From: Niveispirillum irakense DSM 11586 | GTDB lineage: Bacteria > Pseudomonadota > Alphaproteobacteria > Azospirillales > Azospirillaceae | Assembly: GCF_000429645.1 (NCBI RefSeq) | Contig: NZ_AUCG01000002.1 | Span: 1-64,000 of the forward strand | Length of the DNA: 64,000 nt | Direction: 5' to 3' | Shown: one piece after another, positions 19,632 to 40,069 of the stretch | Numbering within the stretch: position 1 is the stretch's first letter | How the letters are laid out: each line of letters opens with the position of its first letter | The notes under the pieces: model-generated | Seen by the model: only the letters and a program-made list of their open reading frames with translations | Databases searched by the model: none | What the model was told of the DNA's origin: nothing | Made by a program: the position numbers and the translations under genes

Positions 19632-19762
19632 ACCAGGCCCGATGAACTGGACTCATCGGGTCTGGTTCGGCGGCGACTGCCGCCGCGCGGCACATGCCGC
19701 GTAGCCAAGCTGCCAAATGGCAGCGCCGGCGACTGAGGTCGGTGATCGGTGACGATTACCGA
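19632..19762 (+). repeat. Five-hairpin intergenic element, copy A
   Basis: Five consecutive inverted repeats: H1 ACCAGGCCCGATGA (19632-19645) with TCATCGGGTCTGGT (19653-19666); H2 CGGCGGC-GACT-GCCGCCG (19668-19685); H3 CGCGGCA-CA-TGCCGCG (19686-19701); H4 GCTGCCA-AA-TGGCAGC (19709-19724); H5 TCGGTGATCG-GTGA-CGATTACCGA (19739-19762). The linkers GTAGCCAAGC and GCCGGCGA are shared with copy B at 39935, while stems H3, H4 and H5 differ by compensating changes. It lies between the carbonic anhydrase 3' end and the lolA 5' end, antisense to both. The function is unknown. Confidence 0.8.
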
Positions 19763-19817
19763 GACTTGGGATTATAGCCGGTGGCAACGCACCGCTCCCG
19801 CCCCTGGTTCCCCGATT

Positions 19818-20519
19818 TTATTCGCTTAAAGGTATGGAAGGAAGGCTGGTGCTGCGCAGACGGGGGCGGATCTGGGGGATGGGGTGGAACCCGCCCGATG
19901 CCTCGTCCAGGATATGCAACTCGGCGGCGCCCACATCGAACAGCATGCCATGCAGGCTCAGCTTGCCTTCCTGCTCCATGGCCGCGATCCAGGGGAAGGT
20001 GCGCAAATTGTTCAGCGACAGCTTCACCACGGCGCGTTCCAGCGTCGGCAGGTCCAGCGGTTCGCCAGGGGTGGTCACGTCGCGCACCTGCTCCAGGGCC
20101 GGATCGGCGATGGATACCCACTGGCTGATGAAGTCGCTGTTGGACTGGCTGCGATCATGGGTCAGGGCGGCGACACCGCCGCACAGGGAATGGCCCATCA
20201 CCACCAGCGATTCCACACCCAGTTCCCGCACCGCAAATTCCAGGGCGGCACTGGTACCGTGATAATCCTCGCTCGGTTTATAGGGGGGCACGAGGTTCGC
20301 CACATTCCGGATCACGAACAGGTCGCCCGGTTGTGCTGCGAAAATCAGGGTGGGATCGACCCGGCTGTCACAGCAGGTGATCAGGGCTGCTTTCGGTTTC
20401 TGGCCCGCCCAAGCCAAGGTGCGGAACAAACCGCGCTGATGACGGAAATTGGTGCGGCGGAACTCGCGGAACCCGTCGATCAAGTCCTTCAGCATGCGAT
20501 CGTCCTCTGAAGCCAGCAT
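19818..20519 (-). CDS. Beta-class carbonic anhydrase
   Basis: A 233-residue cytoplasmic zinc enzyme that hydrates CO2 to bicarbonate. Zinc ligands are visible in CCDSRVDP (Cys and the Asp-Arg dyad) and in GHSLCGG (His-x2-Cys). FVIRNVANLVPP and GTSAALEFAV are family landmarks. I prefer the start at 20519 (or 20495); the longer frame to 20594 has an N-terminus without family features. The C-terminal 20 residues are proline- and arginine-rich. It is followed by the five-hairpin element before lolA. Confidence 0.93.
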   Translation of the reverse strand: MLASEDDRMLKDLIDGFREFRRTNFRHQRGLFRTLAWAGQKPKAALITCCDSRVDPTLIFAAQPGDLFVIRNVANLVPPYKPSEDYHGTSAALEFAVRELGVESLVVMGHSLCGGVAALTHDRSQSNSDFISQWVSIADPALEQVRDVTTPGEPLDLPTLERAVVKLSLNNLRTFPWIAAMEQEGKLSLHGMLFDVGAAELHILDEASGGFHPIPQIRPRLRSTSLPSIPLSE

Positions 20520-20598
20520 TTCGTCGCGCAAAATGCGCCGGGTCGCTCCCCTTGTCCAGAAAACGCAATATTCAGGACCACGCGGGTGGCCCATGCGT

Positions 20599-21243
20599 TC
20601 ACAGCGCAGCCAGCGCCAGCAACAGCCCCGCGGCGATCAGCAGCAGCCCGGTTCCCCGGTTCAGCCATAAGGTCGCCCGGCGACCAGACAGGCGGCGGGC
20701 CAGCGTCCGGCCCCCGGCGGCATAGGTCATGATCCAGCCGAACTCGATCACCAGCATCACCGCGACCAGGATGGAAAGCTGTGGTGCCACCGGCTGGGCC
20801 GGGTCCAGGAATTGCGGGAAGAAGGCGGCCATGAAGATCAGCGCCTTGGGATTGCTGGCCGTGATCAGCGTACCCTGCATGAACAGGCCGGCGCGGCTGC
20901 CTTCCCGCCCTTTCCCGGTGACGGCGGAGGCCGCTGCCGCCTCTTCCCCTTCAGCCGGTACCGGTGCGCGCAGGGCCTGCACCCCCAGCCAGACCAGATA
21001 GGCCACACCCAGCCATTTGAAGATCATGAAGGCGGTGGGCGACGCGGCCAGCAGCACGCCCAGCCCCAGGGCTGACAGGGCGGCCAGCATGCCCAGGGCC
21101 GCACACATGCCGATACCGCCCCAGGCCGCCCCGCCCAGCCCGTGCCTCACCCCCATGCTCAACGCCGACAGCATGTTCGGTCCCGGCGTGGCCGACAGGA
21201 AGAAGCAGGTGGCAAGGAAAATGCCCAGCGTCTGGATATTCAT
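20599..21243 (-). CDS. LysE/RhtB-family amino-acid exporter
   Basis: A 214-residue inner-membrane protein with six hydrophobic segments. It starts MNIQTLGIFLATCFFLSATPGPN, containing the ATPGPN signature of LysE/RhtB exporters, followed by GVRHGLGGAAWGGIG and, near residue 120, ITASNPKALIFM. The substrate is unknown. I chose the ATG at 21243 because the family motif begins there; the longer frame adds an unrelated leader. The gene lies downstream of the MarR-type regulator on the same strand (about 50 bases) and could share its transcript. Confidence 0.9.
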   Translation of the reverse strand: MNIQTLGIFLATCFFLSATPGPNMLSALSMGVRHGLGGAAWGGIGMCAALGMLAALSALGLGVLLAASPTAFMIFKWLGVAYLVWLGVQALRAPVPAEGEEAAAASAVTGKGREGSRAGLFMQGTLITASNPKALIFMAAFFPQFLDPAQPVAPQLSILVAVMLVIEFGWIMTYAAGGRTLARRLSGRRATLWLNRGTGLLLIAAGLLLALAAL

Positions 21244-21295
21244 GATGGCGGGTGCGGCTCGGGTGCGGGGTGGGGGAAATGCCTTGGCGCCCTGG

Positions 21296-21763
21296 TCAGA
21301 TGGTTTTGACCGGGGCGCGGCTCTGATCGTTATTGGCATCGACCAGGCGTCGCAGCAAGCCCAGGAAAACGTGGCGCTCGCCTGCGTCCAGCGGGGACAG
21401 CAGCCTTTCACTGATCCGGGCCAGGGGTTCCTCGCTGCGGGCCATGAAATCGGCCCCTTCCGGCGTCGGGAAGGTCAGCCTTGCGCGCCGGTTATGGGGG
21501 GCCACTTCGCGCCGGATCAGCCCACGCGCCTCCAGCCGGTCCAGCACGCCGGTCACGGTCGTCCGGTCCAGGGCGGCGCGCGATCCCAGCCAGGTCTGGT
21601 CCTGCCCCGGATGGGCCGCGATCAGCGACAGCAGCCCGAATTGCGGCGGGGTCATATCCATCATCGCCGTCTCTTCCAGAAACAGCGCGACACTGATCTG
21701 CCAGAGCCGGCGGATCAGGAATCCCGGCATCGCTTCAAGCTGGTCCATCGTTTTTCCTGCCAT
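21296..21763 (-). CDS. MarR-family transcriptional regulator
   Basis: A 155-residue regulator. After an N-terminal dimerisation helix (LEAMPGFLIRRLWQISVALF) it has the winged helix-turn-helix MTPPQFGLLSLIAAHPG, LGSRAALDRTTVTGVLDRLE and the wing RREVAPHNRRARL. The start is either 21763 or 21748; neither has a strong ribosome site. It is divergent from the EmrAB-type pump genes, the classical layout in which a MarR repressor is released by the pump's substrates. A palindromic candidate operator lies in the shared promoter region. Confidence 0.9.
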   Translation of the reverse strand: MAGKTMDQLEAMPGFLIRRLWQISVALFLEETAMMDMTPPQFGLLSLIAAHPGQDQTWLGSRAALDRTTVTGVLDRLEARGLIRREVAPHNRRARLTFPTPEGADFMARSEEPLARISERLLSPLDAGERHVFLGLLRRLVDANNDQSRAPVKTI

Positions 21764-21887
21764 GGTTCCGGCACTTGTTCGGTGTGCCGTTGGAGAAGGT
21801 CTAGGAGGCAAGGTAGGCGTTGCCGGCATGGGGTTCCCACTATTCCGCTGCGTGGCTCCCATGCGGATTGTGCGCTGCACAGTGAAA

Positions 21888-21916
21888 TTCAGCGTACTAA
21901 TATTCAGCATACTGAA
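21888..21916. promoter_or_regulatory. Candidate MarR operator
   Basis: In the 220-base divergent spacer, TTCAGCGTACT (21888-21898) is repeated as TTCAGCATACT (21903-21913), 15 bases apart centre to centre. The second copy is part of the palindrome TTCAG-CATA-CTGAA (21903-21916). MarR proteins usually bind palindromes of about this size overlapping divergent promoters. The assignment rests on position and symmetry only. Confidence 0.5.
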
Positions 21917-21983
21917 AATAAGCATGCAAGAGTCTTGTCGTGACGCGACCGGTTGCGACCCTCCTGCAAGGAAAGCAACCATC

Positions 21984-23150
21984 ATGTCCGTTGAACCCAC
22001 CCGCCCCGTCCAGACCGATCCCGCCCCCTCATCCAGCCCTGCGGCAGCCCATGACCATGGGCCGGGGGCATTGGGCGCGCGACCCCGCTCGGCCCTGGTG
22101 GGGGGGCTGCGTCGGCTGGCAGTGCCGCTATTTGCTGTCGCCAGCGTTCTGGCGCTGGTGCTGGTCGCGACCGACCGTTGGGAAGGCTGGGTAGGGGCAT
22201 CGGATATCCAGGTGACGGACAATGCCACCATCCGCGCGGATATCAGCCGCCTGGGAGCCAGGGTGTCAGGGGCGGTGCGCCATGTCGCGGTGGCGGATTA
22301 TCAGAAAGTGAAGGCGGGTGACCTGCTGCTGGAGATTGACCCGGCCGAATATCAGGCTGCGGTGGATCAGGCGGCAGCCTCTGTCGCCAGCGCCAGGGCG
22401 GCCCTGGACAATCTCGCCAACCAGATGGACCAGCAGCGTGCTGCCATCGCCCAGGCCGATGCGAAGCGGCTGGCCGCCCAGGCTGGCAATCGACAGACCC
22501 GGCTGGAAGAGGAACGGCAGGCCGATCTGCTGAAACGGGGCCTTGCCGGTACCCGGCAGAAGCTGGAACAGGCCAGCGCCGACCATGACAAGGCCTCGGC
22601 GGAAGGACAGGCTGCCACGGCGGCGCTGGGCGCCGCCCACAGCCAGTTGGATGTGCTGAAGGGGCAGGAGGCGCAACTGGCCGCCAGCCTGCGTGCGGCG
22701 GAAGCTGCGCTGGAGGCGGCACGCCTGCGCCTGTCCTATACCCGCATCACCGCCCCCGTGGATGGGGTGGTGGGGGAAAGGCTGGTGCATGAAGGGGATT
22801 ATGTTGCGGTGGGCGCCAGCCTGATCGCTGTGGTGCCGCTGCCGCAGGTCCATGTCACGGCCAATTACAAGGAAACCCAGCTTACCCGCGTCGTGCCGGG
22901 GCAGAAGGTGGATATCAGGGTCGATATGTTCCCCGGCCAGGAAATCCATGGCCATGTGGCGCGGATGGCGCCGGCCAGCGGCTCCACCTTCGCCCTGCTG
23001 CCGCCGGACAATGCCACGGGCAATTTCACCAAGGTGGTGCAGCGCATCCCGGTGCGGATTGAACTGGAGCCCGGCCAGCCGCTGCTGGATCGGCTGCGTC
23101 CTGGCATGTCGGTGGAAACCCGCATCCATACGGATCAGGCTGGGTCATGA
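21984..23150 (+). CDS. HlyD/EmrA-family membrane fusion protein
   Basis: A 388-residue periplasmic adaptor of a tripartite efflux pump. A cytoplasmic proline-rich tail (1-40) is followed by one transmembrane helix (about 45-63), a barrel-sandwich lipoyl half (VRHVAVADYQKVKAGDLLLEID), a long alpha-helical hairpin (about 115-240), the second lipoyl half (ITAPVDGVVGERLVHEGDYV) and the beta-barrel domain (ANYKETQLTRVVPGQKVDI). The ATG at 21984 follows GGAAAG; the longer upstream frame is not family-like. The stop overlaps the start of the transporter gene. Drug type is unknown. Confidence 0.92.
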   Translation: MSVEPTRPVQTDPAPSSSPAAAHDHGPGALGARPRSALVGGLRRLAVPLFAVASVLALVLVATDRWEGWVGASDIQVTDNATIRADISRLGARVSGAVRHVAVADYQKVKAGDLLLEIDPAEYQAAVDQAAASVASARAALDNLANQMDQQRAAIAQADAKRLAAQAGNRQTRLEEERQADLLKRGLAGTRQKLEQASADHDKASAEGQAATAALGAAHSQLDVLKGQEAQLAASLRAAEAALEAARLRLSYTRITAPVDGVVGERLVHEGDYVAVGASLIAVVPLPQVHVTANYKETQLTRVVPGQKVDIRVDMFPGQEIHGHVARMAPASGSTFALLPPDNATGNFTKVVQRIPVRIELEPGQPLLDRLRPGMSVETRIHTDQAGS

Positions 23151-24727
23151 GTGCGGCCACGCCCGTCAGCGACGGCCCGATCTCCGTCGGCCGTCGCTCC
23201 CATCATCCGCTGCTGGCGGTCGCGGCGGTGCTGCTGGGCGCCTACATGACCAATTTCCATTCCCGGATTTTCTCCACCGGTCTGGCGGACCTGCGCGGCG
23301 CCTTCGGGCTGGGCATGGATGAAGGGGCGTGGCTGTCCACCATTGCCCAGGCGCCGCAAATCCTTATCGCCCCCTGCGTGGCCTGGCTGGTCACCGTGTT
23401 CGGGGTGCGCCGGGTGCTGGTGGTGCCGGCTTTCCTCTATGGCGCCCTGTGCCTTGTCACCCCCTTCATCCGCGATAGTGGCGGGTTGATGCTGATCCAT
23501 GCGGTGGAAGGGTTGCTGCTGGGCCTGTTCGTGCCGGCCACGCTGACCGTGATCCTGCGCAACCTGCCCATGAAATGGTGGGTGCCGGCGGTGGCGGTCT
23601 ATGTGTTCCGGCAGGCATTCGCCATCAATTCCGGTATCGATCTGGTCGGGCTTTATACCCAGGACTGGGGCTGGCAGTGGCTGTACTGGCAGGATGTGGT
23701 GCTGGCACCGCTGATGGGCCTGTGTGCCTGGGCCGGCGCCCCGCGGGAACCGGTGGACCCCGATCTGCTGCATCGGGCCGACTGGGGCGGCATGCTGCTG
23801 TTCGGGTCGGGGCTGGCCATGCTTTATATCGCGCTGGACCAGGGCAACCGGCTGGACTGGCTTGAATCCGGTCTGGTGACGGCCTTCCTGGCCGGGGGTA
23901 TCCTGCTGCTGCTGCTGTTTGCCATCAATGAATGGCTGGTGGAACAGCCCTGGGCCAGCGCGCGGGTGTTGCTGTCGCGCAATCTCGGTCTCACCCTGCT
24001 GGTATCGTTGCTCTATACCTTTGCCTCCGTTTCCAACTCTGCCCTGATCCCGAATTTCCTGTCGACGGTCGGTCATTTGCGGCCGGAACAGGTGGGGCCG
24101 CTGCTGTTGCAATGGGGGGCCCTGCCGCTGCTGGTGCTGATGCCGCTCTGCGTCTGGCTGCTGGGGCGGGTGGATGCGCGGGCGCTGGTGATTGTGGGCC
24201 TGTCCGCCTTCGGGCTTGCCGCACTGATGGGCACGGGCGTCACGCATGACTGGCGGCTGGATGATTTCCGCCTGATGCTGTTGCTTCAGGCGGTGGGGCA
24301 CTGCTTCACTTTCCTGCCCATCGTGGTGCTGGCGCTGGCCAATACCAACCCCGCCCGCGCCACCACCGTTTCCGCCTATATCCAGGTATTGCGGGTGGAT
24401 GGGGTGGTGCTGGCCTCTGCCTTGGCCACCACGGGCCTGCGTCTGTCGGAACAGCTTCACTCCAACCTGATCGGGCTGCATCTGCCCCAGGGCGACAAGG
24501 CGGTGACCGATGCGGTAGGCGCCCTTGGCCATGCCATGGCCGGCCAGGGGCAGGCGGCGGCACAGGCGTTCGGCCTGTCCAATCTGGCATCCCTGGTGCA
24601 ACGGGAAGCGACGGTTCTTTCCTATATTGACGGGTTCTGGGCCTGCTTCGCCCTGGCGCTGGCCGGTATCCTGACCATCGCGCTCACCACCCGCCCGCCG
24701 GCCGGTCCCTTTACCCCCGCCCGATAG
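23147..24727 (+). CDS. MFS transporter, DHA2/EmrB-like
   Basis: A 526-residue major-facilitator drug:H+ antiporter with about 14 hydrophobic segments. AYMTNFHSRIFSTGLADLRGA and GMDEGAWLSTIAQAPQIL correspond to the first helices; the loop with FGVRRVLVV gives motif A. It overlaps the adaptor gene by 4 bases (ATGA), so pump and adaptor are made together. With an outer-membrane channel from elsewhere it would expel hydrophobic compounds or organic acids. The group resembles EmrB-like aromatic-acid exporters, but no substrate can be assigned. Confidence 0.92.
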   Translation: MSAATPVSDGPISVGRRSHHPLLAVAAVLLGAYMTNFHSRIFSTGLADLRGAFGLGMDEGAWLSTIAQAPQILIAPCVAWLVTVFGVRRVLVVPAFLYGALCLVTPFIRDSGGLMLIHAVEGLLLGLFVPATLTVILRNLPMKWWVPAVAVYVFRQAFAINSGIDLVGLYTQDWGWQWLYWQDVVLAPLMGLCAWAGAPREPVDPDLLHRADWGGMLLFGSGLAMLYIALDQGNRLDWLESGLVTAFLAGGILLLLLFAINEWLVEQPWASARVLLSRNLGLTLLVSLLYTFASVSNSALIPNFLSTVGHLRPEQVGPLLLQWGALPLLVLMPLCVWLLGRVDARALVIVGLSAFGLAALMGTGVTHDWRLDDFRLMLLLQAVGHCFTFLPIVVLALANTNPARATTVSAYIQVLRVDGVVLASALATTGLRLSEQLHSNLIGLHLPQGDKAVTDAVGALGHAMAGQGQAAAQAFGLSNLASLVQREATVLSYIDGFWACFALALAGILTIALTTRPPAGPFTPAR

Positions 24728-24848
24728 CCGCATCCGACCAAAATCTCACCGACCTGGACCAAAGGTCAGGTGCGCGCCATGTGCTGTTTCCGCCACAATA
24801 GTGGTGTGGGTGCCATGCCTGCACACGCAACGGGGAAGGGGCGGGCGG

Positions 24849-26639
24849 TTGACAGCGATCAACGAGATCATATTCCTGGTCGGGCTGCTGTTGCTGCTGG
24901 CCATCCTGGCCGGGCGGGTCTCCTCCCGTCTGGGTGCGCCCTTGCTGCTGGTCTTCCTGGGGCTGGGCATGCTGGCGGGGGAGGATGGGCCCGGCCGCAT
25001 CGCCTTTCATGATTTCCACATGGCTTATCTGCTGGGCAGCATCGCCCTGGCCGTCATCCTGTTCGATGGCGGGTTGCGCACCCGGCTGGAGACATTCCGC
25101 CTTGTCCGCAGCCCGGCCCTGGTTCTGTCCACAATCGGGGTGCTGGCGACGGTTCTGGTCACCGGGGCGCTGGCATCCTGGGTGCTGGGTCTCGGCTGGG
25201 CGGAAGGGTTCCTGATCGGCGCCATTGTCGGCTCCACCGATGCGGCGGCGGTGTTCTTCCTGCTCAATCTGCGGGGCATGCGGCTGCGCGGCCGGGTGGC
25301 GGCAACGCTGGAGGTGGAATCTGGCATCAATGACCCCATGGCGGTGCTGCTGACGCTGCTGGCGGTGGAACTGGTGACGGTGGCGGGGCCGGTCGCCCCG
25401 CTGGATCTGGTGCTGGAACTGGTGCGCCAGCTTGCCGGCGGCACCCTTCTGGGGCTGGGGGCGGGCTTTCTGCTGGTGTGGCTGGTCAACCGGCTGGATC
25501 TGGCGGATGGGCTTTATCCCATCCTGGCCTTGTCCTTCACCCTGTTCCTGTTCGGCGGGGCGCAGGCGGCGGGCACGTCCGGCTTCATGGCTGTCTATCT
25601 GGCTGGGCTGATCCTGGGCAACCGCCGGCACAAGGCGGACCGGCTGATCCGGCGCTTCCATGATGGTCTGGCCTGGCTGGCCCAGATCGGCCTGTTCGTC
25701 ATGCTGGGTTTGCTGGTCACTCCATCCCGGCTGGAGGCGCAGTGGCTGCCCGGTGCCCTGGTGGCGCTGGGCCTGATGCTGGTGGCCCGCCCGCTGGCGG
25801 TTTTCCTCTGTCTCGCCCCCTTCCGCTATACGCTGGCGGAGCGGGTTTATGTCAGTTGGGTCGGCCTGCGCGGCGCGGTGCCCATCGTGCTGGCAACCAT
25901 TCCCGTACTGGCCGGCGTGCCGAACGCGCAGGTCTATTTTGGCGTGGCCTTTGTTGTCGTGCTGCTGTCGCTGCTGGTCCAGGGCTGGACGGTGGGCCCC
26001 TCGGCCCGGCTGCTGGGCCTGCTGGCGCCACCCCAGCCGGAACCGCCCACCCGTGCCGATGTTGACCTGCCCGGCGGCACTGGGCAGCTTGCGGTCTTCA
26101 CCGTGGCGCGTGACAGCGAGGCGGCCCTGCGCGGTCGGGGCCGGCTGATCATCCCCGAAACGGTGCAGATGCTGGCCCTGATCCAGAATGGCCGCCCCGT
26201 CCGGCCAGAGGATGCAGTAGGGCTGCAACCCGGCGACACGGTGTTGGCCATGGGGGACAGCGACGCGCTGGCCGTGATGGACCGGCTGTTTGGCCGCCGG
26301 GCTGCCAATGGCACGGCTGACCGCCCGGCCGGGGATTTCCAGGTTCAGGGCGATATCCCGGCCCAGTCGGTGGGGCTGATCTATGGGTTTGAAGCCGGCG
26401 CGATGGGCCACCGGCCGCTTTCCGCCTTCATCCGGCAGACATTGGGTCGCGATCCGGCCTTGGGCGACCGGCTGCGGGTGGGAGAAATTGACCTGATCGT
26501 CGCCGCTGTGGAGGAGGGGGAGGCCTCCCTGGTCGGGATTGATCTCACGCCGCCAGTTTCCGGCTGGGCGGCTTTGCGTGCCCGGCTGACCGGGTTTGGT
26601 AATTTTTGGCGCCGCCGACCGCCGTCAGCGCAGATATAG
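24849..26639 (+). CDS. Potassium/proton antiporter (NhaP2/CvrA type)
   Basis: A 596-residue protein. A CPA1-type exchanger domain (about 1-385, 12-13 hydrophobic segments) contains VILFDGGLRTR, GSTDAAAVFFLL and LEVESGINDPMAVLL, the usual ion-site signatures. A TrkA-C domain follows (about 415-490, VARDSEAAL .. RPEDAVGLQPGDTVLAMG), then a CorC/HlyC-like domain (about 500-585). This order matches the NhaP2/CvrA family. I prefer the TTG at 24849, preceded by GGGGAAGGGG, over an ATG at 24801, because the first helix starts there. It probably exports K+ for pH or osmotic control. Confidence 0.9.
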   Translation: MTAINEIIFLVGLLLLLAILAGRVSSRLGAPLLLVFLGLGMLAGEDGPGRIAFHDFHMAYLLGSIALAVILFDGGLRTRLETFRLVRSPALVLSTIGVLATVLVTGALASWVLGLGWAEGFLIGAIVGSTDAAAVFFLLNLRGMRLRGRVAATLEVESGINDPMAVLLTLLAVELVTVAGPVAPLDLVLELVRQLAGGTLLGLGAGFLLVWLVNRLDLADGLYPILALSFTLFLFGGAQAAGTSGFMAVYLAGLILGNRRHKADRLIRRFHDGLAWLAQIGLFVMLGLLVTPSRLEAQWLPGALVALGLMLVARPLAVFLCLAPFRYTLAERVYVSWVGLRGAVPIVLATIPVLAGVPNAQVYFGVAFVVVLLSLLVQGWTVGPSARLLGLLAPPQPEPPTRADVDLPGGTGQLAVFTVARDSEAALRGRGRLIIPETVQMLALIQNGRPVRPEDAVGLQPGDTVLAMGDSDALAVMDRLFGRRAANGTADRPAGDFQVQGDIPAQSVGLIYGFEAGAMGHRPLSAFIRQTLGRDPALGDRLRVGEIDLIVAAVEEGEASLVGIDLTPPVSGWAALRARLTGFGNFWRRRPPSAQI

Positions 26640-26642
26640 AGG

Positions 26643-28628
26643 TTACTTGCCCCCATGGGCGGCCAGCAGGCGCTTGGTTTCAGCCGGGTTGGCAGTCATG
26701 GGGATGGAGAATTTCACCACCGTGCCCTGGCCGGGGGCGCTGTCCAGCATCAGCTCACCGCCATGGCGCAGCACCAGATCGCGCACCAGCGTCAGGCCCA
26801 GACCGGTGCCGGTTTCGCCCTGCGTGCCCGGCCGGCTGGTTTTCGGCCCCGTTTCCATCGCCTCTGCCAGCAGGTCCGGCTCCATCCCCACACCCTTGTC
26901 GGTCACCGCCACCTCCAGCCGGTCACCCATGGCGCGCGACGTGACATGCACCGCCCCGTCAGGATGGCTGAACTTTACCGCATTCATCAACAGGTTGCGC
27001 AGCACGGCCAGGATCATGGTGCGGTCGGCCAGTACCCAGCGGTCGCCGACCGCATCCAGGATCTGGATATTCTTGGCCTGGGCTGTGGGCGTGACATCGC
27101 GGATCGCATGGGCCACCACATCCCGGATGGGGAAGATGGCCGGGGCGAAGGGCGTGCCCGACATCTGCACCCGCGACCATTGCAGCAGGTTTTCCAGCAG
27201 GTCGAAAACCTTACGCGCCATTTCATGCACCGACCGGGCGAAATCGGCTGTCTGGTCGGGGGCCATGCGCGGGGCATGGTCGGCCAGTTCCTGGGTCATG
27301 CCCAGCATAGAATTGAAGGGCCCGCGCAGATCGTGGGAGATCAGGGAGAAGAAGCGCGTCTTCTCCCTGTTCAGGAAATCCAGCTCATCATGGGCGGCGC
27401 GCAGGTCGGTCAAGGCCCGCTCCGCAGCGGCCCTGGCGTCGCGTTCGGCCTGCATGGCGGCATCGCGTACGGCCAGCGACCGCTGCGTCAGCCGCCGCGT
27501 CACGAACAGCACTACGGTCAGCGCCGCCAGAAATCCGATGACGGAAATCAGCACATCTTTCATTGCCGGTACCAGGATATTCAGTGGCGGCACGATATAG
27601 ACGACCCGCCACGGGGCCTGCTCCAGCGCGGCTGACACCAGGAATGGTTCTGAGATGCCGCGCGTGGCACCGTCCGCGGTCAGGCGTTCCGCCGCGTCGG
27701 GGACCAGTTGCTCCAGCCGCAGGGGTTCCTGTTCCAGCGCGCTTCCAGTACGCAGAATGATGGTGCCCTCACCATCGATCAGCAGCATCTGGGAGCCGGA
27801 CCGGGTAACGGCTCCCAGTTTCTGCTTCAGCCCTTCCAGCAGCAGTTCGATCGTGAAGGTGCCGAAATAGCGGCCATGCAGCGACAGTGGCAAGGACAGG
27901 GCCGCCGTTGCCGCCGGGCCTTTCTGCGACAGGGTCCAGACTTGCTTTTCCCCAGGGTTCATCTGGGGGGCGGCCTGACGGAAAGGCGGATATGTCACGA
28001 CCTGCAACAGCAGGTCGCTATCATCACTATGGATCCAGGGATGCACCGCCACCATGCCGCTGACAGACGCATAGATCAGCCGGTTCGTATCCGGAACCAG
28101 GCTGCTGGTCACGGCCATCAATGGCAGCATCTGCACCGCCATGGCCGCTTCCTGGCGCCAGATATCCCGGTCGGGCCGGGAAATGCCGGGCTGCTGGCTG
28201 GCATCCAGGTCCGACATGGCGATGATATTGCCGATCTGTTCCGTCAGATAGGGCGGGGGCAGCCGGTTCAGCGTATAGGCCTGATCCGGCTGGTCGCCTG
28301 GGTTGCTGGACAGCAGGGCCGACAGCAGGGGGCTGCGCGGCACATCCTCGGGCGCTGGATATTCGGCATAGAAATATTCCGCCCGCTGGCGCAGGGCGGC
28401 CAGATGGCCACCGGCGATCTGGAACTGCCCGTCCAGGGCGGCGGCCCGGGCGCGAATCTGGCTTCCGATAATGGTTTCAATGGCGGCGATGCGGTCATTG
28501 ATATGGGACCAGAGCAGATATCCGCCCAGCAATGCCCCGGCAACCAGGGCCACAATCAGCACGCGGTCCGTCCGCGCCGTCCCGGTAACGGGATGCGTCT
28601 TGATGCTTGCCGCTTGGGATCGCTTCAT
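26643..28628 (-). CDS. Membrane sensor histidine kinase with large periplasmic sensor
   Basis: A 661-residue sensor kinase. A first membrane helix (about 22-40), a periplasmic domain of about 310 residues with the pattern of a double-Cache fold, and a second membrane helix (about 357-377) are followed by a coiled-coil linker and the dimerisation domain, with the phospho-accepting His432 in LISHDLRGPF. The ATPase domain has LLMNAVKFSHPDG, TDKGVGM and GTGLGL. No response regulator is adjacent, so it is an orphan kinase. Its stop lies 3 bases from the stop of the convergent antiporter gene. Confidence 0.9.
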   Translation of the reverse strand: MKRSQAASIKTHPVTGTARTDRVLIVALVAGALLGGYLLWSHINDRIAAIETIIGSQIRARAAALDGQFQIAGGHLAALRQRAEYFYAEYPAPEDVPRSPLLSALLSSNPGDQPDQAYTLNRLPPPYLTEQIGNIIAMSDLDASQQPGISRPDRDIWRQEAAMAVQMLPLMAVTSSLVPDTNRLIYASVSGMVAVHPWIHSDDSDLLLQVVTYPPFRQAAPQMNPGEKQVWTLSQKGPAATAALSLPLSLHGRYFGTFTIELLLEGLKQKLGAVTRSGSQMLLIDGEGTIILRTGSALEQEPLRLEQLVPDAAERLTADGATRGISEPFLVSAALEQAPWRVVYIVPPLNILVPAMKDVLISVIGFLAALTVVLFVTRRLTQRSLAVRDAAMQAERDARAAAERALTDLRAAHDELDFLNREKTRFFSLISHDLRGPFNSMLGMTQELADHAPRMAPDQTADFARSVHEMARKVFDLLENLLQWSRVQMSGTPFAPAIFPIRDVVAHAIRDVTPTAQAKNIQILDAVGDRWVLADRTMILAVLRNLLMNAVKFSHPDGAVHVTSRAMGDRLEVAVTDKGVGMEPDLLAEAMETGPKTSRPGTQGETGTGLGLTLVRDLVLRHGGELMLDSAPGQGTVVKFSIPMTANPAETKRLLAAHGGK

Positions 28629-28836: not shown

Positions 28837-28852
28837 CCGCGCTCCACGAGAT

Positions 28853-28928
28853 GGGCGCGTAGCTCAGGGGTTAGAGCACTCGCCTGATAAGCGAGAGGTC
28901 GGTGGTTCGATTCCACCCGCGCCCACCA
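28853..28928 (+). tRNA. tRNA-Ile (GAU), first copy
   Basis: A 76-base cloverleaf: acceptor stem GGGCGCG/CGCGCCC, D arm with AGCTCAGGGGTTAGAGC, anticodon stem CTCGC/GCGAG around loop CTGATAA (anticodon GAT), T arm GGTGG-TTCGATT-CCACC, and encoded CCA end. It reads AUC and AUU codons. It lies outside an rRNA operon and is repeated identically 172 bases downstream. Confidence 0.97.
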
Positions 28929-28962
28929 TCCCGTCTCAACCTGCGCTTTGCAGGGTGAACCG

Positions 28963-29024: not shown

Positions 29025-29100
29025 GGGCGCGTAGCTCAGGGGTTAGAGCACTCGCCTGATAAGCGAGAGGTCGGTGGTTCGATTCCACCCGCGCCCACCA
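29025..29100 (+). tRNA. tRNA-Ile (GAU), second copy
   Basis: Identical over all 76 bases to the copy at 28853, including the encoded CCA. No clear promoter of its own is visible after the terminator-like structure, so it may depend on read-through. Confidence 0.97.
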
Positions 29101-31603: not shown

Positions 31604-31744
31604 TTTCTGCCCCCAAGTCGAGATGTTGAGCAATTTCTCACCAGAGAGTGCCCGATTTTCCCGTCACTTCGCAAGGACATGCCCCGGCCCCTGCCCGTAT
31701 CATCCGAAACAAGTTATCGACCAAACCATTCCAGGGAGGATGAC

Positions 31745-32860: not shown

Positions 32861-32885
32861 TTGCCTTTAGGCCGGGCCTAGATGG

Positions 32886-32917
32886 CGGGGGGCGTTTCGG
32901 TGCCCCCCGTTTGTTTT
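32886..32917 (+). terminator. Intrinsic terminator after the HPPD gene
   Basis: CGGGGGGC (32886-32893) pairs with GCCCCCCG (32902-32909) around an 8-base loop, followed by TTTGTTTTT. The convergent sirtuin gene ends just beyond, so it may serve both directions. Confidence 0.85.
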
Positions 32918-32923
32918 TCAGGC

Positions 32924-33706
32924 TCAGCGTATCGCCAGCAGGGCATCCACCAGGGCAGGCACCGTCTGGCTGGCAGGGCCATACAGGCCGCTATGGAACA
33001 GATGCGCCCCGTCTGTTGCTTCCAGATTGACCTCTACCGTCACCGCCCCGGCGGCGCGGGCTTCCGCCACAAAGCCGGCGGCAGGATAGACATTGCCCGA
33101 TGTGCCGATGGAGATGAACAGGTCGTTGGGTTCCATCGCTTCCAGCGCATCGCCGATCCTGTCCATGAAGAGCGGCATTTCCCCAAACCAGACGATATGC
33201 GGCCGCAGATAGCCGACCCGCCCGCAAGCGGGGCAGGTGTCGGTATCGGACAGGTCACCCGTCCAGGGATGCAGCCCGCCGCATTCGGTACAGCGCGCCT
33301 TCATCAATTCCCCATGCATGGCGATCAGGTCGGTGGAACCGGCCCGGTCATGCAGATCATCCACGTTCTGTGTCACCAGCAGCACCGGCCCCTGCCATTC
33401 CCGTTCCAGCCGCGCCAGGGCGTGATGGGCCGGGTTGGGCTGGACGGCAGGGTCCAGCAAGGCCTGGCGGCGGGCATTATAGAAACCCTGCACCTTGTCC
33501 GGATCGCGGGCAAAGGCGCCGGGCGTTGCCACATCCTCCAGCCGCACCTGGGCCCAGATGCCATCGGCATCGCGGAACGTGTGCAACCCGGATTCCCGGC
33601 TGATCCCGGCCCCTGTCAGGATGATGATGGCGGCATCGGGGCGCAGCCGGCGCAGATGGCGGGCGAGATCATCGGGCAGGGAAGCGGGGGCGGGCAGGGG
33701 TGACAT
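32924..33706 (-). CDS. cobB: NAD-dependent protein deacylase (sirtuin, CobB-like)
   Basis: A 260-residue SIR2-family enzyme that removes acyl groups from lysines using NAD. Visible motifs are the NAD-binding GAGISRESGLHTFRD, the catalytic His region TQNVDDLHDRAG and HGELMKARC, and a zinc site with CTECG and CPACG. The FYNARR segment gives the Tyr-x2-Arg pair seen in class III sirtuins, which favours desuccinylase or demalonylase activity. An ATG at 33760 is an alternative start with an unconserved leader. Neither start has a strong ribosome site. Confidence 0.92.
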   Translation of the reverse strand: MSPLPAPASLPDDLARHLRRLRPDAAIIILTGAGISRESGLHTFRDADGIWAQVRLEDVATPGAFARDPDKVQGFYNARRQALLDPAVQPNPAHHALARLEREWQGPVLLVTQNVDDLHDRAGSTDLIAMHGELMKARCTECGGLHPWTGDLSDTDTCPACGRVGYLRPHIVWFGEMPLFMDRIGDALEAMEPNDLFISIGTSGNVYPAAGFVAEARAAGAVTVEVNLEATDGAHLFHSGLYGPASQTVPALVDALLAIR

Positions 33707-33828
33707 GGGTTTTGATTGGCCGGATGGTGGCGGAAAGGATGGTGATGCTATCATCCCCATCCTTGCAGGCCCAGACCATGGGACGCGGCCTGCCTCTCAC
33801 CCGCCTTCTTGTTGGATAGAGACTTTCA

Positions 33829-34296
33829 ATGCCTGCCATCCTGTTTGTCTGCACGGGTAATATCTGTCGTTCCCCAACCGCAGAGGGGGTGTTCCGCCAT
33901 CTGGTGGCGCAGGCGGGGCTGGAGGACCAGTTCACCATCGATAGCGCCGGCACCCACGCTTATCATGTCGGGGAGCCGCCGGATCACCGCTCCGCTGCTG
34001 CGGCGGAACGGCGCGGTTATGATCTCAGCCCGCTTCGCGCCCGTGCGCTGGTCCCGGCGGATTATGACCGGTTCGACCTGCTGCTGGCGATGGATCGCGG
34101 CCATCTGGAGATTATGCAGCGCAAGCGCCCCGCCGGCAGCCGGGCGGAACTGTCCCTGTTCCTGGACCATGCCCCGGCGCCCCTGAAAGGCCGCGACGTG
34201 CCCGACCCCTATTATGGCGAGGGCCGCCATTTCGGGGAGGTGCTGGATCTGGTGGAAGCAGGTTCACGCGCCCTGCTGCGCAAACTGACGGCGTAA
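33829..34296 (+). CDS. Low-molecular-weight protein tyrosine phosphatase
   Basis: A 155-residue enzyme with the P-loop VCTGNICRSPTAEG (Cys11 nucleophile, Arg17) near the N-terminus and the general-acid loop DVPDPYYG at about 124. The length is typical. In polysaccharide loci such enzymes dephosphorylate Wzc-type kinases, but here it stands apart from that island and no kinase is adjacent. It is divergent from the sirtuin and convergent with the LytTR gene. Confidence 0.93.
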   Translation: MPAILFVCTGNICRSPTAEGVFRHLVAQAGLEDQFTIDSAGTHAYHVGEPPDHRSAAAAERRGYDLSPLRARALVPADYDRFDLLLAMDRGHLEIMQRKRPAGSRAELSLFLDHAPAPLKGRDVPDPYYGEGRHFGEVLDLVEAGSRALLRKLTA

Positions 34297-34324
34297 AGGG
34301 CAGGGGTAACGCTCTGGTGTCCTG

Positions 34325-35179
34325 TTATCCCTCCCCGCGCAAGGCGGCCAGGGCCTGGGGATAGCGGCGGGAGAGCGGGATATTCTGCCCATCTGTCAGG
34401 GTCAGGGCATAATCACCTGACCCTTCCGGTGCCAGTGCCCGGACATGGGCGGGATTGACCAGCCAGGACCGGTGTGTGCGCAGGAAACCCTGCGCGCCCA
34501 GACTTTTGCCAAGCTGGGTCAGCGTGGTCCGCATCAGGGGGCGGGTGCCGTCCTTCAACAGGAATTCCACATAATTCCCGGCTGATTGAGCGGCCAGGAT
34601 ATCGGCTATTGGCACCCGCAGCAGCCGTGCCCCGTCCCTTATATCCAGGCTGGGCGGCCCCAAGGGTGCTGTTGGCAGGGCTGGCACTTTGGCCGGGGGG
34701 ATCGCTTCCCCTTCCGGCATCCGGGCTGCTGCCTGGGGACGCCCCACGCCATGGGCCAGGAAAATGGCCGCGATAACGACATAGGACAGCACGTCTTTGC
34801 GGAATTCATAGAGCATCACCTCCGGGCTCAGCCGGAAATAATAATCCAGGTCGAACAGGTGATTGCACAGGGCCCGCAACCCCGCCATCCCCAGCACATG
34901 CAGCAGGGAGAACAGGCAGGCCCCCATCAGGTGGGTCACCGCCTGCCGCTGCCAGGGCGCCGTGACCGGCACCTTGGCCAGGGCAAGGCCAGCGATCCAA
35001 GCACAGGCCAATATGGCGATGGCGCTGGTCCCTTCCGTCATCACCGGGAACCACCAGGCGACCGGCCGGCCCAGCCAGGTCCGGTTCTGCAGCTCTGTGA
35101 AGACATTGATGCTGTTGGAGACCAGCAGCAGCAGGCAGAGGGAGAGATAGGGCTGCCAGCGCAAGAAGGTGCCGTTCAT
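34325..35179 (-). CDS. Membrane-bound LytTR-family transcriptional regulator
   Basis: A 284-residue protein (longer starts at 35221 and 35332 are possible, but the last overlaps the divergent gene). Four transmembrane helices occupy about residues 5-145, then a proline-rich linker and a C-terminal LytTR DNA-binding domain (LLRVPIADILAAQSAGNYVEF, LGAQGFLRTHRSWLVNP, IPLSRRYPQAL). It lacks a receiver domain, so any signal is sensed by the membrane part. The start I chose is preceded by GGGGCGGG. It is divergent from an acyltransferase-family membrane protein with only 140 bases between starts, suggesting a regulator-target or regulator-partner pair. Confidence 0.88.
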   Translation of the reverse strand: MNGTFLRWQPYLSLCLLLLVSNSINVFTELQNRTWLGRPVAWWFPVMTEGTSAIAILACAWIAGLALAKVPVTAPWQRQAVTHLMGACLFSLLHVLGMAGLRALCNHLFDLDYYFRLSPEVMLYEFRKDVLSYVVIAAIFLAHGVGRPQAAARMPEGEAIPPAKVPALPTAPLGPPSLDIRDGARLLRVPIADILAAQSAGNYVEFLLKDGTRPLMRTTLTQLGKSLGAQGFLRTHRSWLVNPAHVRALAPEGSGDYALTLTDGQNIPLSRRYPQALAALRGEG

Positions 35180-35319
35180 CCCGCCCCGCGCGCCGTTTGT
35201 CCCAGCCGTCCCGCCCGGCATCCCAGCGGCATCGCCATCCGTCCCTGGTGCCTTGCCGTCCCCGGCCCGGTCGCGCCTATCAGGGCCATCGACGATCCTG
35301 TCAGGCTCTTGAGGTGACG

Positions 35320-36510
35320 ATGAATACCGCACTGCTATCCGCTCCCCGGATCGATACAGGCCCCGGTCCCACGCCTGGACGGCTGGCCTTTCTGGATTGG
35401 GTCAGGGTGGGCGCTTTCGGCCTGCTGATCTTCTACCATGTCGGCATGTTTTATGTGACCTGGGACTGGCATGTGAAGAGCGACCATGCCGGTCATGGGC
35501 TGGAACCGCTGATGCTGCTGACCAATCCCTGGCGGCTGACCCTGCTGTTCCTGATATCCGGGGTGGCCACCCGCTTCATGGCCGACAAACTGCCCCTGGC
35601 GCCGCTGTTGCGGGCGCGGCTGGCGCGGCTGGGCATTCCGCTTCTGTTCGGCATGGCGGTGCTGGTGGCGCCCCAGCCTTATTACGAGGTGGTGGAAAAG
35701 CTGGGCTATGGCGATGGTTTCATCGCCTTCTATGCCCGCTATCTCAGCTTCGATGGCAGCTTCTGCCGGGGCGATGATTGCCTGATACTGCCAACCTGGA
35801 ACCATCTCTGGTTTGTGGCCTATCTGCTGGTTTACACTCTGGTGCTGGGCGCGCTGCTGGCACTGTCACCGCGCCGGCTGGCAAACCCCTTACCCCCGGC
35901 CTGGATGGTGCGCGGCCCCTGGCTGCTGGTGCTGCCGGTCCTTTTCCTGGCGCTGCTGCGCCTGTTCCTGCTGCCGCATTTTGAGATTACCCATGCGCTG
36001 GTGGATGATTGGTACAATCACGCCATGTCGTTCAGCGCCTTTCTGTTCGGGTTCGCCATCGCCCGGCAGGATCGGGTCTGGGCACGGGCAGAGGCATTGC
36101 GGGTGCCGGCGCTGCTGCTGGGGCTGGTGACCTGGATCGCCTTTGCCACCTATGTCTGGCAATATCGGGAAAGCGACCCGCCAGAGGCGCTGCGCATGGT
36201 GATGCGGATTATCTATGCCGGGCAGCAATGGGGCTTCATCATCGCCATCCTGGGCTTTGCCCGCCGCTATCTGAACCATGGCAACCGCTGGCTCTCTTAT
36301 CTCAGCGTCGGGGTCTTTCCCTTTTACATCATCCATCAGACCGCCATCGTCGTGGCTGCCCACCATCTGAAGGCGCTGGGCCTGCCCGTGGTGCTGGAAG
36401 CGGTGCTGCTGATTGCCATCACCATCGCTGCCTGCCTGCTGACCTATGAGGCAGCACGCCGCATCCCCGTCCTGCGACCATTCTTCGGGCTGAAAAGGGG
36501 CGGCGGCTAA
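35320..36510 (+). CDS. Acyltransferase-3 family membrane protein (OpgC/MdoC-like)
   Basis: A 396-residue inner-membrane protein with about ten transmembrane helices. It begins with RLAFLDWVRVGAFGLLIFYH (the conserved acyltransferase-3 start with the catalytic-type His), then LFLISGVATRFM and LLRARLARLGIPLLFG. It resembles the OpgC-like group that O-acylates glucans or other glycans with succinyl or acetyl groups. It ends with a helix-rich region carrying FYIIHQTAIVV. The ATG at 35320 is preceded by GAGGTGAC. It faces away from the LytTR regulator; the substrate is unknown. Confidence 0.85.
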   Translation: MNTALLSAPRIDTGPGPTPGRLAFLDWVRVGAFGLLIFYHVGMFYVTWDWHVKSDHAGHGLEPLMLLTNPWRLTLLFLISGVATRFMADKLPLAPLLRARLARLGIPLLFGMAVLVAPQPYYEVVEKLGYGDGFIAFYARYLSFDGSFCRGDDCLILPTWNHLWFVAYLLVYTLVLGALLALSPRRLANPLPPAWMVRGPWLLVLPVLFLALLRLFLLPHFEITHALVDDWYNHAMSFSAFLFGFAIARQDRVWARAEALRVPALLLGLVTWIAFATYVWQYRESDPPEALRMVMRIIYAGQQWGFIIAILGFARRYLNHGNRWLSYLSVGVFPFYIIHQTAIVVAAHHLKALGLPVVLEAVLLIAITIAACLLTYEAARRIPVLRPFFGLKRGGG

Positions 36511-36606
36511 GCAATTCTTTACATATTGGCGCGCAAGATCGTTTCTGGCGCCGAGACAGGAGGTGCCAGCGTTTTTCGGGGTGGGAATTTGCAGTTGGCG
36601 GCGGCA

Positions 36607-37137
36607 ATGGCGGAACAGGCGGCGGATACCGCCGGAGTGGCGGATGTGAGACTGCGCGAGCTGGTGGCCTATTGGGCCGGCCTGCGCGGTGACCGTGCCG
36701 CCCCGCCGCGTGCCGCCCTGGACCCCGCCGGCATGCTGGCGCTGTTGCCCTGGGTCGCCCTTCTTGATGTGCAGCAGGACGGGTTCCAGCTACGGCTGGC
36801 CGGCACGGCGCTGGAGGCGATCTGCGGCCGGTCTTTGACCGGCGTGCGGCTGGCCCAGCCTGCGGTTGACGGGATCGACCCGGACCTTCTGGACTGGCTG
36901 CGCCATGCCTGCCACGCCCGCGTTCCCCTTTCCCTTCAGGCGGTGGTCACGACAAGGCGCGGCCCCGGTCGCCTGCAGGCCGTGATCCTGCCTTTGTCCA
37001 GCGATGGGGAGAGTGTGGACAAGCTGTTGTGCGGCTGCGTGCCGGTTGGTGGCATGCGCAGCGGCGGGGCCTTGTTCCGCCGCGACGATCCGGCCCTGGC
37101 GCTGACCAATGTCACCGCTATTACCTTGATGGTTTGA
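36607..37137 (+). CDS. PAS-fold protein (PAS_5 type)
   Basis: A 176-residue soluble protein of the short alphaproteobacterial PAS family: LVAYWAGLRGDRAAPPRAAL, MLALLPWVALLDVQQDGFQLRLAGT and LCGRSLTG-like AICGRSLTGV. No output domain is present, so the partner is unknown. The start is uncertain: ATG at 36607, a TTG near 36592 behind GGTGGGAA, or a TTG at 36526. It lies between the acyltransferase and mutS genes. A second member of the same family is encoded at 49643. Confidence 0.7.
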   Translation: MAEQAADTAGVADVRLRELVAYWAGLRGDRAAPPRAALDPAGMLALLPWVALLDVQQDGFQLRLAGTALEAICGRSLTGVRLAQPAVDGIDPDLLDWLRHACHARVPLSLQAVVTTRRGPGRLQAVILPLSSDGESVDKLLCGCVPVGGMRSGGALFRRDDPALALTNVTAITLMV

Positions 37138-37200
37138 CGGCGGCTTTGGCTGGTGTAGGGTCCGCCCATCGGACCCCTTTGCCTGCCCAAAGCTGTCACC

Positions 37201-39930
37201 TTGTCCAAAAACACCAGCACTGCCAGTCCCGCCGCCCCCGTTTCCCCCATGATGGTCCAGTATCTGGACATCAAGGGGCAGCATCCAGGCTCGCTGCTCT
37301 TCTATCGCATGGGCGATTTTTACGAGCTGTTCTTTGACGACGCCGTGCAGGCGGCGGCAGCGCTCGACATCACGCTCACCAAGCGCGGCCAGCATCAGGG
37401 GGAGGAAATCCCCATGTGCGGCGTGCCGGTGCATTCCCATGAACAATATCTGCTGCGGCTGATCCGCCAGGGTTTCCGTGTCGCCATCTGCGAACAGACG
37501 GAAGACCCGGCGGAAGCGAAGAAGCGTGGTTCCAAATCCGTTGTCCGGCGGGAGGTGGTGCGCGTCGTCACCCCCGGTACCATCACCGAGGATGGCTTGC
37601 TGGATGCCCGGTCGAACAATTATCTGGCGGCCTTGGCGGAAGCCGGCGGCGAGGGTGGCCTTGCCTGGCTGGACCTGTCCACGGGCGAGTTGACCCTGGC
37701 CCCGGTGGACCGCGCCGGGCTGGGGGCAGCATTGGCAAGGCTGGCACCGGGGGAGGTGCTGCTGCCCGAACGGCTGTTCCAGTTGGACGAGTTGGAGCCG
37801 GTCTGGGGTGAATGGCGCAACCGCCTGACCATCCAGCCCAATGCACGGTTTGACAGCGAGAATGGCCGCCAGCGCCTGCTGGCGCTTTATGGCGTGGGTA
37901 CGCTGGATGCGTTCGGTGCCTTTACAAGGGCAGAGGTGGCCGCCGCCGGTGCCCTGGTCGATTATGTGGAACTGACCCAGAAGGGAAGGTTGCCGCGCTT
38001 TGATACGCCGCGCCGCCAGGGCGCGGGGCAGGTGCTGGAAATTGATCCCGCCACCCGTCGCAACCTGGAACTGACCCGTACCATGACCGGCGACCGGCGT
38101 GGCAGCCTGCTGGCCGCCATCGACCGCACCGTGACGGGTGCCGGCGCACGCCTGCTGGCCGCCCGGCTTTCAGCGCCTTTGACCGATCCGGCCCGCATTG
38201 CCCGGCGGCTGGATATGGTGTCGCTGCTGGTGGAACAGACGCATCTGCGCCTGGATATAAGGGCAGAGCTGGGCCAGACGCCGGATATGGAACGTTCCCT
38301 GTCACGGCTGACACTGGATCGCGGCAGCCCGCGCGATCTCGCCTGCATCCGCGATGGACTGGCCCGCGCCGTGGCGTTACGCGGGCGGCTGGCCTATGGC
38401 GATGCCGGGCCGCTGCCGGAAGGTTTGGCGCGGGTGGCCAATGGGTTGCTGGGCGGTGAAGGGGCGGATCACGAGGCGCTGATCGACCTGTTGTCGAAGG
38501 CGTTGGGCCCGGAACTGCCGCTGCTGGCCCGCGATGGCGGCTTCATCGCGGCGGGATATTCCGCCCCGCTGGATGAGTTGAAGGGCCTGCGGGATGACAG
38601 CCGCCGGCATATTGCCGGGCTGCAGGCGCACTATGCTGACCAGACGGGCATCCAGTCCCTGAAGATCCGCCATAATAATGTGCTGGGCTACTATATTGAG
38701 GTAACGGCCCTCCATGCCGACAAGCTGATGTCGGAAAAGCACCGGGCCGATTTCATCCACCGCCAGACCATGGCAGGCGCGGTGCGCTTCACCACCGTTG
38801 CCCTGTCGGAGCTGGAGCGCAAGGTGGCGGAGGCTGGTGACCGGGCGCTGGCGTTGGAACTGGACCTGTTTGCCAAGCTGGTGGCCGAGGTGGTGGCGAA
38901 AGCCGATTACATCGCCGCCACTGCCCGCGCGCTGGCCACGCTGGACGTGACGGCGGCCCTTGCCGAACTGGCGGTGGAGCGCAACTGGTGCCGCCCGCAT
39001 TTGAGCGATGATCTGACGTTTGAGATCAGCGCCGGCCGGCATCCGGTGGTGGAGGAAGCGCTAGCCGACCAGGGCGGCGGGGCCTTTGTCGCCAATGATT
39101 GCGGCCTGTCGCCCGGCCAGCGCCTGTGGCTGCTGACCGGCCCCAACATGGCCGGTAAATCCACCTTCCTGCGCCAGAATGCGCTGATTGCTGTGCTGGC
39201 GCAGTTGGGGGCCTATGTGCCGGCATCCAGCGCCCATATTGGCGTGGTGGATAAGCTGTTCAGCCGCGTGGGCGCGGCGGATGATCTGGCGCGCGGTCGT
39301 TCCACCTTCATGGTGGAGATGGTGGAGACGGCCACCATCCTCAATCAGGCGACCCGCCGGTCGCTGGTGATCCTGGATGAGATCGGGCGCGGCACGGCAA
39401 CCTTCGACGGTCTGTCCATCGCCTGGGCCTGCGTGGAACATCTGCATGAGGTGGCAGGCTGCCGGGGCCTGTTCGCCACCCATTATCACGAGTTGACGGC
39501 GCTGGCGGCCAAGCTGGCCGAGCTTTCCTGCCACACGATGCGGATCAAGGAATGGCGTGGCGAGGTGGTGTTCCTGCATGAGGTGGCAGCCGGATCGGCC
39601 GACCGTTCCTACGGCATCCATGTCGCCCGGCTGGCCGGCCTGCCGCCGGCGGTGATCCACCGGGCCGAACAGGTGCTGAAAATCCTGGAAAAGGGCGATC
39701 AGGCCAGTGCCGCCACGCGGCTGGCCGATGACCTGCCCTTGTTCGCGGCCCTGGCGAGGCCGGCACCGGCGCCTGTGGCGGCACCCGACCCGGTGGCCGC
39801 CGGCCCGTCAGTGGTGGAAGGGGCCTTGCGGGATATCAATCCCGACGACCTGACCCCTCGTCAGGCACTGGAGGAACTCTACCGGCTGCGCCGCCTCCTG
39901 ACGGAAGGTGAGGGCGGCGACGGAAAGTGA
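37201..39930 (+). CDS. mutS: DNA mismatch repair protein MutS
   Basis: A 909-residue MutS that recognises mismatches and starts repair with MutL. The N-terminal mismatch-binding motif is [12 protein letters not shown] (Phe-x-Glu), the connector and lever domains follow, and the C-terminal ATPase has [13 protein letters not shown] (Walker A, about 645), the ABC-type signature region and [20 protein letters not shown] (Walker B), then FATHYHEL. The C-terminal tail has the tetramerisation-type ending [18 protein letters not shown]. The first codon is TTG at 37201. A five-hairpin repeat follows directly after the stop. Confidence 0.98.
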
Positions 39931-39934
39931 TCAT

Positions 39935-40069
39935 ACCAGAAGCCCGGTGAGTGGAACTCATCTGGCTTCTGGTACGGCGGCGACCGCCGCCGCGCCGCAC
40001 ATGCGGCGTAGCCAAGCCAACAGATGTTGGCGCCGGCGATTGAGGCTGGTGATCGGCTACGATCACCAG
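39935..40069 (+). repeat. Five-hairpin intergenic element, copy B
   Basis: Five consecutive inverted repeats: H1 ACCAGAAGCCCGGTGA (39935-39950) with TCATCTGGCTTCTGGT (39958-39973); H2 CGGCGGC-GACC-GCCGCCG (39975-39992); H3 CGCCGCA-CA-TGCGGCG (39993-40008); H4 GCCAACA-GA-TGTTGGC (40016-40031); H5 CTGGTGATCG-GCTA-CGATCACCAG (40046-40069). It fills the space between the convergent mutS and marC genes almost exactly. Loops and linkers match copy A while paired stem positions change together. It could terminate both genes, but its complexity exceeds that of a simple terminator. Confidence 0.8.

Follow-up and report, generated by a model that had tools for sequence, protein, structure and literature searches.

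A dispersed five-hairpin repeat of Niveispirillum irakense, probably a gene-less transposon with covarying stems

What kind of element repeats five hairpins in the same order at distant intergenic places while the letters of their stems change in pairs? The question is raised by the first 64,000 nucleotides of contig NZ_AUCG01000002.1 of Niveispirillum irakense DSM 11586 (the window), where two such copies, A and B, had been noticed from the sequence alone and attributed provisionally to a small RNA, a bidirectional terminator or a mobile palindromic repeat. Sequence and folding confirm the five hairpins (H1 to H5) in both copies at the places claimed. The positions first given for the two copies hold, and the true ends lie a few bases beyond them, at 19631-19771 for A and 39934-40078 for B. 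The paired differences are equally real, both in H3 (CGCGGC/GCCGCG in A, CGCCGC/GCGGCG in B) and in H4 (GCTGCC/GGCAGC against GCCAAC/GTTGGC). Among the three attributions, the mobile palindromic repeat is upheld by target-site duplications and nested insertions, while the small RNA and the terminator are not. We read the repeat as a non-autonomous, gene-less DNA transposon resembling the miniature inverted-repeat transposable elements (MITEs), mostly 144-158 bp long, whose fold is selected in its own propagation, and give this reading a probability of about 0.88.

Copy number, ends and target of the repeat

A covariance model of the central block (R1; H2, H3, linker and H4), built from 24 copies, matches the genome (5.45 Mb, Niveispirillum genus group) at 68 places with E<=1, among them 55 with E<=0.001, and blastn with copy A finds 37 genome places at E<=1. 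Further copies, on which the original prediction hung, thus abound, and the dispersed, structured and covarying intergenic family that it proposed is borne out by covariation far beyond two copies. Azospirillum sp. RU38E, which like Niveispirillum sp. SYP-B3756 falls within the window's genus, has at least 150 matches, all 150 scored candidates matching R1. With up to 60 candidates scored per genome, 55 of 82 genomes and 10 of 13 genera of the family match R1 at E<=0.001. In a sample of the class, with 12 candidates scored per genome, 26 of 385 genomes and 20 of 276 genera match at E<=1e-5; three of these carriers are members of the window's genus, and the other 23 come from outside its family. 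In 17 loci, one per genome, from 17 of these 23, the linker AGCCAAG is always present with at most one mismatch and the tail reads YTGAGG (16 loci) or ATGAGG (one), a conservation partly due to selection because the loci were found with the model; some of them have TACCA-like ends. A pattern scan (57 stretches) found carriers in Niveispirillum, RU38E, Nitrospirillum amazonense and three metagenome-assembled genomes (MAGs), one labelled Azospirillum, one from the Azospirillaceae and one labelled Acetobacteraceae. One plasmid record, from Niveispirillum, has eight places, and phages gave no match. In a different alphaproteobacterial family, one copy lies about 1 kb from a SAM-alpha riboswitch (L229:435-515).

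The element begins with TACCA and ends with TGGTA. Of 122 distinct copies whose two ends could be placed, 62 without one exact end were set aside; the 60 kept span 144-180 bp, and 58 of them 144-158 bp. Identical trinucleotides flank 44 of the 60, against a shuffled mean of 15.9, and none of 10000 shuffles reaches 44. The flanking word has the form TNA on both sides in 50 copies, with the middle base common to 44 of them, and the duplicated words are nearly always TAA, TTA, TGA or TCA. Outside these trinucleotides, at distances of 3 and 6 bp, the words agree in two and one of the 60 copies, which is the chance level. When no exact ends were demanded, matching flanks were still found in 43 of the first 77 located copies (shuffled mean 12.8).

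Insertion can also be followed from one member into another. At locus L147 a copy is nested in the linker of a second member with TAA doubled, and its flanks, joined with a single TAA, align without gaps to L091 at 90% over 109 bp. At L158 the nested copy sits in the H4 loop with TTA doubled, and the joined flanks align to other members, for example L136, when small gaps are allowed. For site A, both flanks were found in eight of ten other genomes of the genus, and the gap between them is 122-185 bp shorter in all eight, as if the site were empty there; divergence is too great for a base-exact junction.

Comparison of the left end with the reversed right end in 43 copies, whose first five terminal bases are identical by selection, shows imperfect identity that is raised to about position 30 and then drops. 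H1 and H5 are therefore palindromes within terminal inverted repeats. TGA is found on both sides of a copy shortened by deletion to 118 bp (C1:839288-839405). RU38E moreover contains solo mini-elements of about 31 bp (L250, L252), flanked by TTA/TTA or TGA/TGA, which are apparently internal deletions between repeats common to H1 and H5. Short size without a transposase gene, terminal inverted repeats and target-site duplication are all present, and the element is filed as MITE-like by its size, ends and target duplication.

A three-base duplication together with inverted ends is most naturally read as the work of a DDE-type transposase. Such an enzyme, acting in trans on the imperfect, roughly 30-bp terminal inverted repeats, each of them palindromic, with TACCA...TGGTA at the ends, would insert the element at TNA and generate the 3-bp duplication. 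The mobility of the element, its target, ends, copy number and covariation are shown directly, and the class of enzyme and the reason for the fold are inferences from them. TNA is also the target word of the IS1031 group, and an element of the genus that we take from its ends to be IS1031-like (L167) has TCA on both sides; its ends, GAGCCTGATCCG..., are unlike TACCA, and IS1031 was discarded as parent for that reason. The available part of PMC2516522 says that insertion at a three-base site is common among members of this group, which belongs to the IS5 family.

Covariation of the stems and the reason for the fold

Pair changes were counted against shuffles on 121 core matches (102 distinct), the counts being of sequences and not of independent events. 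In these matches 98.1% of 2233 stem cells are paired. Double changes occur in 16 of the 22 stem pairs, with 326 double-change cells against 83 in shuffles, and the covariation score is 0.410; shuffles give 0.093, and sliding the partners gives no more than 0.074. H4 alone has 28 distinct stems among the 102 sequences, 91 of which pair perfectly in this hairpin. Since model searches favour paired sequences, the check was made on copies found with a pattern in which three H4 pairs were unconstrained. Of 54 distinct copies, 50 have perfectly complementary triplets there, of eight different kinds.

How changes accumulate in copies that stay where they are was read from sites shared by RU38E and SYP-B3756. 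Forty SYP-B3756 loci (28 with located ends) were compared with 60 RU38E loci, out of at least 150 copies in that strain, and three had both flanks matched in addition to one known pair. In the resulting four pairs (L120/L141, the same as L272/L310; L125/L135, the same as L260/L338; L124/L134; L276/L349) the readable stem differences are single-sided and uncompensated; L124 has a broken H2 arm, and L125 and L135 differ in their loops alone. On this small sample, pairing seems to be maintained from one spreading lineage to another and not restored by repair at a given site.

The central H2-H3-H4 block would accordingly keep its pairing, while its letters change in pairs, through selection during propagation, and copies would decay once settled. 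The fold would then serve the spread of the element itself, for example as hairpins or a cruciform read by the transposition machinery; it might alternatively keep insertions harmless on both strands. A bolder version is possible, although we lean against it: the internal three-hairpin array may itself be the selected, transmissible part of a class-wide mobile family, whose fold, as DNA hairpins or as RNA, would be required at each round of spread, with compensatory changes arising between lineages and settled copies decaying. It would amount to a structure-recognised transposon with terminal palindromes, a TNA target and an enzyme that has yet to be connected with elements of this kind.

The paired changes could also arise with no selection on the fold, by hairpin-templated mutation in which one arm is copied onto the other. 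Many G-C to C-G switches between otherwise near-identical copies are what such a process would leave, as are the clustered changes in one H2 arm that distinguish L124 from L134 at the same site. However, the L124 cluster breaks pairing instead of restoring it, and the in-place stem changes of the four same-site pairs are single-sided, so that we regard templated mutation as unlikely, albeit the likeliest of the rivals. An altered left arm of H2, ATGCTGC for CGGCGGC, occurs in four distinct copies (including loci L114, L124 and L147); its recurrence suggests either that a variant with a broken stem has spread or that copies have converted one another.

Several observations weigh against a transposon whose fold is selected during propagation. 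The propagation argument rests on the four same-site pairs. Some copies, single cores or tandem ones, have no terminal hairpins (L238, L079, L086), and the core may thus persist or spread without the terminal ends. The flanking words of A and B do not match (TAA/TTA and TCA/TTA). Nor was an autonomous partner encountered. None with TACCA ends was found at 30 of the 44 DDE_Tnp_1 matches of the genus, seven of these 30 loci having a lone end-like word and none a pair around the gene. In this genome, none emerged from 100 of the 104 TNATACCAA sites listed, among which the sole fitting pair 500-3500 bp apart spans an element copy and a gene taken as yebC. One subfamily in RU38E has 38 right ends, of which 32 have the core at its normal distance; the remaining six were inspected, and the five without a core revealed no autonomous partner. 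Each of the six was rejected as a candidate: L248 is a solo end beside genes taken as monooxygenase, acyl-CoA dehydrogenase and ferredoxin; L249, L250 and L252 are mini-elements of about 31 bp, the flanks of which match in the latter two and not in L249; L251 is a decayed copy, and L253 has lost most of H5.

The core also occurs in tandem arrays, repeated at intervals of about 88-116 bp, at L238, L079, L086 and L158, on contig C5 of genome G384 (26470-26771) and on contig C20 of RU38E (12165-12457).

Placement between genes

Gene context was derived from an open reading frame (ORF) heuristic based on GC content at third codon positions (GC3), not from annotation. Among 71 copies, 25 lie between convergent, 30 between tandem and five between divergent genes; seven that overlap a predicted ORF and four at locus edges were left out, giving 60 classified intergenic copies. 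The intergenic regions of the same loci, copy-holding ones included, comprise 51 convergent, 143 tandem and 41 divergent cases (n=235). Where there is a gene upstream, 21 of 45 left ends adjoin a stop codon, as opposed to five of 45 right ends, and random choice of intergenic TNA words predicts 16.2 of 43 and 11.7 of 42. A special targeting of stop codons was considered and rejected, because 26 of 85 ends lie at a stop codon when 27.9 are expected for any intergenic TNA, and no extra preference is needed. TNA targeting and loss of insertions inside genes explain the total of stop-codon adjacency, though perhaps not its left/right skew. As the stop codons TAA and TGA are themselves TNA sites, insertion at a stop codon rebuilds it by duplication and is tolerated.

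The skew is one of the points that would suit a structured RNA (a small RNA or an element of 3'-untranslated regions) that transposition had dispersed and whose RNA fold is now under selection where it stands. The strong covariation and the linker and tail kept in all 17 out-of-family loci, in part by selection of those loci, point the same way. If RNA of one strand were selected, however, G-T should exceed A-C among single-sided stem changes; the counts are 24 and 16 (p 0.27), besides 27 cells with other mismatches. Copies between tandem genes are evenly divided, 15 on the strand of the genes and 15 on the other, there is no promoter-like site at A or B, no Rfam family matches at threshold, and the same-site stem changes that could be read are uncompensated. 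With all this the RNA interpretation, and with it the small RNA first proposed, appears improbable.

Even less can be said for a bidirectional transcription terminator spread between genes. Its best argument is placement, since 25 of the 60 intergenic copies fall between convergent genes and only five between divergent ones, but loss of insertions in promoters and genes accounts for the same distribution. Scanning A and B on either strand detected no terminator-like site with a run of T residues, and this reading is very unlikely.

Described families and the copies in the window

To our knowledge, the nearest described alphaproteobacterial repeats are the Caulobacter CcrM-associated intergenic repeats (CIR), reportedly the work of Chen and Shapiro (2003). 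As far as the available parts of PMC2229807 and PMC10969869 describe them, they consist of two arms and a linker, with a conserved GANTC at the loop, over about 110 bp; they resemble the element in being alphaproteobacterial and intergenic with hairpin arms and a linker, and are set apart from it by description, the element having five hairpins and being depleted in GANTC. In 75 copies 12 GANTC words were found against 38.1 expected from mononucleotide shuffles, and GANTC lies in the H1 loop region of nine of the 75, so that identity with CIR was rejected for want of a conserved loop GANTC.

The bacterial MITEs Correia/NEMIS, ERIC and RUP are likewise short, gene-less, mostly intergenic and folded, with inverted ends and target duplication, according to the available parts of PMC2229807 and PMC10969869. 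In the available part of PMC2229807, Correia, ERIC and RUP appear with TA as their terminal word. The element differs from all these by its TNA duplication, TACCA ends, five separate hairpins and covarying three-hairpin core.

A REP/BIME-type palindrome moved by a RAYT (a Y1 transposase acting on hairpins) is hardly credible: the element is palindromic, intergenic, high in copy number and in some genomes arranged in tandem, but Y1_Tnp matches number 0 in this genome and are present in one of seven other carrier genomes tested, and the Y1 mechanism is not expected to give a 3-bp target duplication. REP/BIME repeats resemble the element in being palindromic, dispersed and sometimes in tandem arrays (PMC2817692, available part); they differ in that its genome is without a RAYT match and the element has the 3-bp duplication.

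No family of Rfam 15 matches the element at threshold in the window and 20 loci, as the original prediction of an unnamed family had it. Below threshold, copy A scores highest with Pseudomon-groES, on the minus strand (25.7 bits against a threshold of 50; E 0.0056). A literature search with few subscription journals covered brought up no recognised description of the element.

Table 1. Features of the three copies in the window
Feature	Position	Strand	Basis
Left flanking word of copy A, TAA (TNA type)	19628..19630	+	sequence; family target word TNA
Copy A, TACCA...TGGGA, decayed right end	19631..19771	+	limits set by ends of other copies
A hairpin H1, left terminal palindrome	19632..19666	+	folding
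A hairpin H2, CGGCGGC-GACT-GCCGCCG	19668..19685	+	folding
A hairpin H3, CGCGGC-ACAT-GCCGCG	19686..19701	+	folding
A linker GTAGCCAAGC	19701..19710	+	sequence
A hairpin H4, GCTGCC-AAAT-GGCAGC	19709..19724	+	folding
A hairpin H5, right terminal palindrome	19739..19762	+	folding
Right flanking word of copy A, TTA; mismatches left word	19772..19774	+	sequence
Left flanking word of copy B, TCA, directly 3' of mutS stop TGA (39928-39930)	39931..39933	+	sequence
Copy B, TACCA...GGCTA, decayed right end	39934..40078	+	limits set by ends of other copies
B hairpin H1	39934..39974	+	folding
B hairpin H2, CGGCGGC-GACC-GCCGCCG	39975..39992	+	folding
B hairpin H3, CGCCGC-ACAT-GCGGCG	39993..40008	+	folding
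B linker GTAGCCAAGC	40008..40017	+	sequence
B hairpin H4, GCCAAC-AGAT-GTTGGC	40016..40031	+	folding
B hairpin H5, CTGGTGATCG-GCTA-CGATCACCAG	40046..40069	+	sequence; folding
Right flanking word of copy B, TTA = stop codon (TAA, minus strand) of marC-like gene	40079..40081	+	sequence
Copy C, decayed third copy; core 12602-12676 (34.9 bits, E 3.4e-4), H5-like palindrome 12677-12710	12602..12710	+	

The predicted folding energies of A and B are -90.4 and -90.1 kcal/mol, with shuffle means near -57 (z about -8.2) and none of 200 shuffles as low. Both right ends have decayed from the TGGTA of the family (Table 1). Copy A has a minus-strand gene on either side, one lolA-like and the other carbonic-anhydrase-like. 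Copy B sits exactly at the junction of mutS and a convergent marC-like gene (39928-40081). These two genes, adjacent in the window, are apart in the relatives searched; site B is for this reason unusable as an empty-site test, and copy B may mark a rearrangement. The window also contains two tRNA-Ile (GAT) genes of identical sequence about 100 bp apart (28853-28928 and 29025-29100). Genes for this tRNA are usually located in rRNA operons, although no rRNA match was found within the window.

The repeat, which has no Rfam entry, is found in several families of the Alphaproteobacteria, Nitrospirillum amazonense being among its carriers. Strong stem covariation, which is normally taken as proof of a functional RNA, can ride on a transposable element, and this calls for caution in covariation-based RNA discovery. 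It also raises a testable question, namely why a MITE keeps its internal hairpins paired.

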